Of a DNA stretch of 64,000 bases, positions 25,394 through 55,303 are shown piece by piece (the first letter of the stretch is position 1; every line of letters starts with the position of its first letter). The translations under genes and the position numbers were made by a program. The DNA is from Thalassotalea psychrophila (lineage in GTDB: Bacteria > Pseudomonadota > Gammaproteobacteria > Enterobacterales > Alteromonadaceae): contig NZ_CP134145.1 of NCBI RefSeq assembly GCF_031583595.1, positions 3,534,001-3,598,000 of the forward strand, in the 5' to 3' direction. The notes under the pieces are model-generated. The model was not told where the DNA came from. It did no database searches and saw nothing but the letters and a program-made list of their open reading frames with translations.

Positions 25394-25420
25394 AGTACGT
25401 TAAAGCAGATAACTTGCAAA

Positions 25421-25470
25421 GTTACAAATCTATTGCCATCCTTGGCGATTTGCATTCCTTCATCCCTGAA
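25421..25470. repeat. Structured repeat, short form, in the gntR leader
   Basis: A 50-base copy that differs at three positions from the short copy at 55201-55250, with the next seven bases GTAAAAA also shared. It retains the outer CAAATC/GATTTG stem and an inner GCCA/TGGC stem. Confidence 0.8.
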
Positions 25471-25493
25471 GTAAAAATACAAGCGCTACACAT

Positions 25494-34277: not shown

Positions 34278-34304
34278 AAACCAACATTTATTGTTGGTTT
34301 TTTT
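34278..34304 (+). terminator. Rho-independent terminator of the LysR gene
   Basis: AAACCAACA (34278-34286), a short AT loop, TGTTGGTTT (34292-34300), then T to 34304. Confidence 0.88.
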
Positions 34305-34418
34305 GGCCATGGATGGCCTATATGACAAAAATGCACTAATACAGTGATGTATGTAGTTAGAGCAATGTAGGGAATATTTGCCGAGGAGCAATTTTTTGTT
34401 TTTGATTCAAGGATGATA

Positions 34419-34519
34419 CAAGGATGATTCAATGCAAATCACCATGGACCGTTCTTAGGCATCCCTGCCTTCACGGCATATACAACTTCCATGTTGAAAA
34501 CGGTTATAGATTTGCAAAC
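34419..34519. repeat. Structured repeat, long form, inverted and diverged
   Basis: Reads on the minus strand like the 102-base unit at 54997-55098. Outer stem GCAAATC (34434-34440)/GATTTGC (34509-34515); second stem ACCGTT (34448-34453)/AACGGT (34499-34504); hairpins AGGCA/TGCCT (34457-34470) and CAAC/GTTG (34483-34496). Stem bases differ from the 55-kb copies yet still pair. It lies in a 365-base gap without a gene. Confidence 0.75.
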
Positions 34520-54775: not shown

Positions 54776-54996
54776 GTTTGTCTCACAGCTTAAAGATACG
54801 ATGGTAATGCATATGACTACCTTATCTGCCTTTGTTACAGGCAGGATACCTAAATATGGTTGTTATTAAAATCATCTTATCGGCATTTGCAATAACTTAA
54901 AAATAATATTACACCTCAAAGCTATATTTAATTGATTATAGCTAGAGCATTTTCTAAAAGTTAAATAAGTAAATTTTAACCCCTTTAACCCATAAA
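54776..54996. other. Region upstream of kynU
   Basis: No gene. It should hold the kynU promoter, but no strong -35/-10 pair, TyrR box or sigma-54 site was recognised. Confidence 0.45.
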
Positions 54997-55250
54997 GTTA
55001 CAAATCTACTGCCGTTTTCAACATGGAAGTTGTATATGACGTGGTCACATGGATGTGAAAGAACGGCCCATGGCGATTTGCATTCCTTCATCCGTGAAGT
55101 TACAAATCTACTGCTGTTTTCAACATGGAAGTTGTATATGCAATGGTCACATGGATGTGAAAGAACGGCCCATGGCGATTTGCATTCCTTCATCCGTGAA
55201 GTTACAAATCTACTGCCATCCATGGCGATTTGCATTCCTTCATCCGTGAA
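54997..55250. repeat. Tandem array of structured repeats: 102 + 102 + 50 bases
   Basis: Copy 1 (54997-55098) and copy 2 (55099-55200) differ at four positions. Copy 3 (55201-55250) lacks the central 52 bases. In copy 1: CAAATC (55001-55006)/GATTTG (55075-55080), GCCGTT (55011-55016)/AACGGC (55062-55067), hairpins CAAC/GTTG (55019-55032) and TCACAT/ATGTGA (55045-55058), which together form a cloverleaf-like fold. Copy 3 keeps the outer stem and GCCAT/ATGGC. Related copies are at 25421-25470 and 34419-34519. Confidence 0.92.
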
Positions 55251-55252
55251 GT

Positions 55253-55280
55253 AAAAAGCCCCAGATAGATAATCTGAGGC
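55253..55280 (-). terminator. Terminator of the LVIVD-repeat protein gene
   Basis: On the minus strand GCCTCAGAT, loop TATCT, ATCTGGGGC, then five U. Nine pairs including one G-U. It abuts the repeat array. Confidence 0.85.
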
Positions 55281-55303
55281 TTATGTGTAAGATCCTGAAT
55301 CTA

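Follow-up and report, generated by a model that had tools for sequence, protein, structure and literature searches.

Clusters of REPINs form by insertion into or beside other REPINs, according to the available part of one study (PMC3116915), and the recognition of REPs is described in the accessible text of another (PMC8266576). GTAG repeats occur in some Shewanella, as stated in the available portion of PMC3733652, and the accessible part of PMC6006769 reports that a subclass of TnpA-Y1, prevalent in both Chromatiales and Alteromonadales, is without REPs. Group IIC introns, for their part, insert after intrinsic terminators (PMC4424553, in its available text, citing Robart 2007). Concerning Thalassotalea, the accessible sections of a genome paper mention repeats for CRISPR only (PMC7564069), and our literature searches, which covered few subscription papers, found no published description of the repeat family presented here.

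The window is a stretch of 64,000 nt of the 4.8-Mb single-contig genome of Thalassotalea psychrophila (G000, C1:3534001-3598000); G004, G006, G008, G010, G011 and G013 are codes of related Thalassotalea genomes. The feature at 34.4 kb is probably one copy of a modular and non-autonomous mobile element made up of hairpins, which nests in itself, is linked to terminators and has relatives in several other genera of the order.

Hairpin units in the window

The stretch 34419-34517 is an inverted copy of two long copies located at 54998-55096 and 55100-55198, to which it is 81% and 79% alike. The latter two reach 109.8 and 103.3 bits with model R1, which was built from 15 long G000 copies, the window copy being one of them (its score is given in Table 1). 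The model also finds two short units free of the module M described below, at 25422-25459 and 55202-55239. No Rfam family matched at gathering score within the window.

Table 1. Terminator, units and modules located in the window (positions from its first nucleotide)
Feature	Positions	Strand	Basis or remark
Host intrinsic terminator of a LysR-type gene (hairpin and T-tract)	34280..34304	+	sequence; the repeat composite begins right 3'
Opening unit of the composite, of the second type: small hairpin GGCCATGGATGGCC and big hairpin CAAAAATGC(A)..GGA..GCAATTTTTTG	34305..34398	+	
Module X (49 nt), reversed, in the big-hairpin apex of the second unit type (TGCA^GGAGC)	34336..34384	-	
H0 region of the 34.4-kb unit: small GGA hairpin, in part duplicated	34405..34431	+	
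Long copy of the unit	34428..34517	+	model R1, 108.4 bits; pair counts
Module M (arm A and arm B), in the outer-hairpin apex after CATGG	34448..34501	+	M-free short units elsewhere
Tandem array: two long copies and one short copy	54998..55252	-	minus-strand start follows a terminator
Short unit without module M, behind an imperfect terminator-like hairpin	25419..25472	-	near-identical left flank on a G004 copy

In the basic unit of about 50 nt, a small hairpin whose apex reads GGA (H0) is followed by a big bulged hairpin (S1). Among the 146 matches listed, 27 are short (38 nt), 100 are long (83-97 nt), 8 measure about 139 nt and 11 have other lengths. The long form is the short form with a second hairpin pair, module M with its arms A and B, located exactly in the S1 apical loop (CATGG^ATGG). 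With the second type of arm B nothing is lost at the joint (GCCATGG-M-ATGGC) and with the first type AT is missing; in the form of about 139 nt, module X lies inside arm A at CATCC^ATG; some G004 copies carry a related hairpin pair in the H0 apex; and M read backwards has the layout of the basic unit (all by eye). In other genera, M is found alone or as tandems of 50-53 nt.

In the long copy at 34.4 kb, the outer stem (34433-34440/34509-34516) encloses a closing ACC (34441-34443) paired with GGT (34502-34504), then arm A (34449-34476) and arm B (34483-34496). Units of the second type start after a terminator T-tract in 10 of the 13 loci showing that start (by eye), and their X-free copies (L206, L217, L208, L209, L212 and L213) read TGCA(T)GGAGC. 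The terminator that precedes the 55-kb array has its hairpin at 55258-55281 and its T-tract at 55253-55257; the one of the short unit at 25 kb was found by a looser terminator script and missed by a stricter one. A 93-aa open frame (54954-55235) spans the tandem array; it results from reading through the repeat and is very unlikely to be a gene.

Pairing and covariation in the long copies

An earlier note on this DNA had reported that one hairpin of the window copy is rewritten on both sides in comparison to the 55-kb copies, and another one is identical. The quoted letters are indeed present, AGGCA/TGCCT (34457-34461/34466-34470) against CACAT/ATGTG at 55 kb, and the hairpin CAACTTCCATGTTG (34483-34496) is common to the window and 55-kb copies. 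The inner stem ACCGTT/AACGGT, proposed there as a conserved pairing with a compensatory change, has to be replaced: across the copies, CCGT 34449-34452 pairs instead with the middle ACGG 34473-34476, and the altered T34504 pairs with A34441, within the closing helix.

This pairing was drawn from a structural alignment of the 15 long G000 copies, all checked exact against the genome. It forms a cloverleaf with an outer stem (columns 6-13/82-90), a closing GCC/GGC (14-16/75-77), arm A (22-25/46-49 and 30-34/39-43) and arm B (56-60/65-69). In these 15 copies 92.8% of its cells are paired, against at most 34.9% for slid versions used as control, and 11 of its 25 pairs are changed on both sides. 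Most helices of the structure in the note are common with the cloverleaf, and it also reaches 90.3% of paired cells, above its shuffles. Its inner stem has 82.2% of cells paired, and the sole two-sided change in this stem is the outermost pair (columns 21-77), which is broken in 6 of the 15 copies, whereas the cloverleaf pair 14-77 is broken in none. Unconstrained RNAalifold closes 14-16 with 75-77, without the inner stem of the note, and omits the outer part of arm A. We have therefore rejected this stem on the basis of pair counts, RNAalifold and covariation ranks, although the window copy folded singly as RNA favours it, in both its minimum-energy and centroid structures. The stem is intact in the first 55-kb copy (L006), where the outer part of arm A has a single mismatch, and in the second (L011) both the stem and the outer part of arm A are broken. 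The single-copy fold is moderately better than shuffles (z of -2.35 as DNA and -1.83 as RNA). In 15 module sequences from ten genomes of four genera, 93.3% of the arm-A cells are paired (slid versions, at most 40.7%), and 8 of the 10 pairs of this arm are changed on both sides.

Covariation was tested in an R-scape-like manner (APC-corrected G statistic, substitutions re-placed on the tree) with 88 distinct sequences, from 89 copies of 83-97 nt and at least 45 bits. With all 88, two of the four pairs at E=0 join unpaired columns (53-71 and 53-72), whose scores reach those of paired columns; this is an effect of module swapping, since there are two types of arm B. Since this swapping confounds a single tree, the test on all 88 was discarded, and a main subset of 28 copies with one outer-stem and arm-B type was used, together with arm A alone. 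In the 28 copies, all of ranks 2-10 among the 3240 column pairs, and so 9 of the top 10, belong to the cloverleaf (hypergeometric 1.2e-19, if pairs were independent); rank 1, columns 30-41 at E=0, does not. The inner stem of the note ranks only 161-2691 of 3240. A test of the kind suggested in the note puts structure pairs in most of the top ranks of this subset, but most single pairs miss E<0.05: no structure pair alone reaches it in the 28 copies, and two do so for arm A alone in the 88 copies (32-41 and 24-47), both of them structure pairs.

The covariation is real across many copies and follows the cloverleaf; the stems remain paired, although they are frequently exchanged as a whole. Indeed, the identity of the outer stems is nearly uncorrelated with that of the inner modules (r = 0.088, 0.237 and -0.023 in three genomes), and in the best pairs inner modules up to 98% identical are carried by outer stems less than 50% identical. 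The same stem alleles are found at many sites and in other species. As stems change block-wise and outer and inner modules reassort, cassette exchange explains much of the covariation without RNA selection. The paired base changes at 34.4 kb are real, yet alone they are no proof of an RNA under selection. The earlier note was right that pairing is kept; selection on RNA does not follow from it, since the stem variants are largely reassorting block alleles in an apparently mobile element.

Paired changes may also be produced without selection for pairing by mutational quasipalindrome correction, through template switching in hairpins. The switch of whole stems as blocks (CACAT/ATGTG to AGGCA/TGCCT) is what such a process would give, and the non-pairing columns 30 and 41 covary as strongly as paired ones. 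However, the recurrence of stem alleles across sites and species points to module exchange or copying, and template switching leaves the insertion behind terminators unexplained. We consider this origin unlikely.

Placement behind terminators and occupancy of the sites

To count terminators, the 146 matches listed were merged into 118 arrays. A terminator T-tract is located just before the unit in 60 of the 118, in comparison to 70 of 3202 control positions (2.2%) and to 2 of 118 on the opposite side, and in 41 of the 60 terminator-linked arrays its end is at exactly 13 nt from the start of the model match. In G000, 112 sites fit a half-unit pattern when up to 3 mismatches are allowed, and none fits the same pattern read backwards, as a control; among the first 30 of these 112 sites, 19 are behind a terminator (control 37/2476) and 11 behind another unit (10 by script, 1 by eye). 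For the other genera, 26 of 30 loci were counted, after removal of L248, which is from the own genome, and of three loci close to contig ends (L268, L274 and L277): 9 are in contact with a terminator at their H0 side and 4 have one on the far side (control 88/1542). Such contact was observed at 9 of 10 loci in genera g36, g60 and g2 taken together, at 0 of 11 in g26 and at 0 of 5 in five other genera. A replication-strand bias was considered and dropped, because its sign is inconsistent (20/32, 29/39 and 6/23 arrays co-directional, with the origin assumed at coordinate 1).

In genus g26 (L249, L253, L255 and others), the module is embedded in a nested palindrome of larger size, GTGCAGAT...ATCTGCAC, which in several loci encloses CCAAAACATGGATGTTTTGG; no terminator was found on the H0 side of this palindrome. 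Double-hairpin units adjoin apparent 5S rRNA sequence at L096 and L109 (G014) and at L276 (G026), and units lie near apparent tRNA gene 3' ends at L049 (G002), L050 (G008) and L025 (G000:3280894), with tRNA-end-like letters repeated between units at L050 (all by eye).

The model gives 66 matches in G000, 94 in G004 and 38 in G010. With a model of the module (R2), which rests on 15 module rows from four genera, three of them differing by one letter each from the locus, matches were found in 39 of 247 genomes of the order and 15 of 88 genera. There was no match in the other 208 genomes, nor in 45 of 59 in another search, with queries mainly from Thalassotalea. A 22-nt pattern scan of a wider contig collection, possibly without the own and near genomes, yielded 7 stretches from distant groups, which we took as chance.

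At the window site, no unit can be recognised behind the terminator of G010, G008 and G006, and in G004 the unit is a different one (by eye). Orthologous regions were usable for 7 of 10 other G000 sites, and at each of these 7 at least one relative is without the long copy (by eye; 20 of 52 matches were used, and three from G011 were not the same place). Thus, by eye, G010 carries a short unit where G000 has a long one (G000:1519803); at G000:3737973, G004 carries two units, with G010 and G006 empty; G010, G006 and G008 are empty at G000:3227403; at G000:63428, G010 is empty and the G004 unit is on the opposite strand of a terminator; and at G000:980103 G010 retains only an H0-like piece. Such empty or different states at the same sites are the mark of a mobile element.

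CsrA sites carry GGA in loops, as do these units, and a structured RNA under selection, such as a 3' UTR or a sponge of the CsrB kind, would make the covariation a product of its function; the two-sided changes in the cloverleaf and in arm A are of the kind that it would leave. The units nevertheless follow terminators and their presence varies among species, the loops of the modules occur in either orientation (GGA as well as TCC on one strand), and the window is without Rfam match at gathering score. Since the units sit 3' of terminators, copies just downstream should be little transcribed. A selected RNA is, in our opinion, very improbable.

The mobile element is the reading that we prefer. 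Its members appear to nest in each other, M in the S1 loop and X in arm A or in another unit type, a direction that we infer from the sequences, gain and loss of M being indistinguishable at any single site. Units would land immediately 3' of intrinsic-terminator T-tracts or behind another unit, in line with an occupancy that varies between the species compared; M would then enter the S1 apical loop, and X would enter either the arm-A apex or that of a different unit type. During movement each stem may be recognised as folded, probably single-stranded, DNA, and both arms may be copied or exchanged together, so that pairing persists; the compensatory changes at 34.4 kb would be such stem variants. 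Landing at terminators could serve as a safe haven that spares genes. More tentatively, this could be a class of hairpin-targeting mobile DNA which recognises folded DNA both outside itself (terminators) and inside itself (its own apical loops), grows by recursive self-insertion into cloverleaf-like structures and is served by an undescribed enzyme or by a domesticated Y1 protein devoid of HUH. With terminators as landing place and mutual nesting at fixed joints in a family of very small elements, the mechanism is directly testable. That strong two-sided covariation can arise by modular exchange in mobile DNA is a warning for covariation-based RNA discovery.

Candidate enzymes and comparison with known systems

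In the genome sequences, we found no mobilising enzyme, target-site duplication or transposition intermediate. An autonomous parent transposon was also considered, and at the 30 half-unit sites inspected, out of 112, neither such a parent nor a gene-bearing element was seen.

In G000 a single Y1 gene was found, which is RAYT-like and adjoins galU (L038:1144-1869 = G000:C1:1399231-1399956, minus strand, 242 aa). Its product passes Pfam Y1_Tnp (36.9 bits, cut-off 23) and stays below NCBIfam REP_Tyr_transpos (44.7 bits, cut-off 80). Orthologues 59.5-84% identical are present in G004, G010, G006 and G011. The HUH motif is replaced by HIQ in G000, G010, G006 and G011 and by QIQ in G004, the Tyr region being kept; more distant galU-linked members have QIH, QVH or RIL, and most other aligned Y1 proteins have HUH. 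The gene is under purifying selection (G000-G010, dN 0.085 and dS 0.919, dN/dS about 0.09; G006-G011, 0.027 and 0.241), and we propose it as a candidate domesticated transposase.

If this Y1 protein reads hairpins as single-stranded DNA, as a RAYT would, the units could be REP/REPIN-like elements moved by it. Its selective constraint is compatible with this idea, as are the units at its 3' end, a cut-short one in G000 and two matches in G004; the unit beside the gene, however, sits behind the galU terminator, which already accounts for the adjacency. The five genomes with orthologues (G000, G004, G010, G006, G011) have more matches than the other ten (U=49, p=0.002), a comparison confounded by kinship to G000, the source of the model. 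Similarly, Y1 homologues (E<1e-20) are found in 12 of 39 genomes with module matches versus 18 of 208 without (Fisher p=0.0005, kinship uncorrected, hand count), but 27 of the 39 are without such a homologue, and G013 has 14 unit matches and no Y1 hit. S1 is bulged like E. coli REPs, in the available description of the latter (PMC8266576), yet no GTAG or CGTC tag was seen before the hairpins, and HUH is lost, including in G004, the genome with most matches. Mobilisation by this protein seems doubtful to us.

A reverse transcriptase could also retro-mobilise the units in trans, in the manner of group IIC introns; this would fit the kind of target, and RVT_1 matches exist in G000 and G010. However, PF00078 was found in just 4 of the 15 genomes of the genus and not in the repeat-bearing G004, G006, G011 and G013, and the units are only about 50-140 nt long, with no Rfam match in the window. 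As several repeat-bearing genomes are without RVT_1, this mobiliser was rejected, and we regard such a route as highly improbable.

With REP, REPIN and BIME sequences, the Thalassotalea units share small extragenic hairpins in many copies, paired hairpins, tandem arrays and a bulged stem, and some of their hosts have a RAYT-like Y1 gene. The many extragenic copies lie behind terminators or other units. Unlike REPs, they are without GTAG or CGTC tag and start with a T-tract followed by ACTTCA, ATTCA, GCTCA and others (by inspection); they also differ by their position directly after T-tracts and by modules nested in apical loops at fixed joints. Whereas a RAYT has HUH and Tyr, the galU-linked Y1 is without HUH and is absent from many repeat-bearing genomes. 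For the nesting, insertion of REPINs into REPINs, as given in the available text of PMC3116915, is the nearest precedent found.

Insertion behind intrinsic terminators is common to our units and group IIC introns, with a mixed picture for the module in other genera, but the Thalassotalea units (50-140 nt) have neither a reverse transcriptase frame nor, in the window, an Rfam match, and the RT gene is missing in several hosts. Like MITEs they are short, non-autonomous, interspersed and palindromic; they differ in being modular and self-nesting, and the sites read showed neither a target-site duplication nor a parent transposon whose ends match. Finally, CsrB/RsmZ-type RNAs also consist of rows of hairpins with GGA in the loop, whereas the Thalassotalea units are dispersed DNA behind terminators, with loops both ways.
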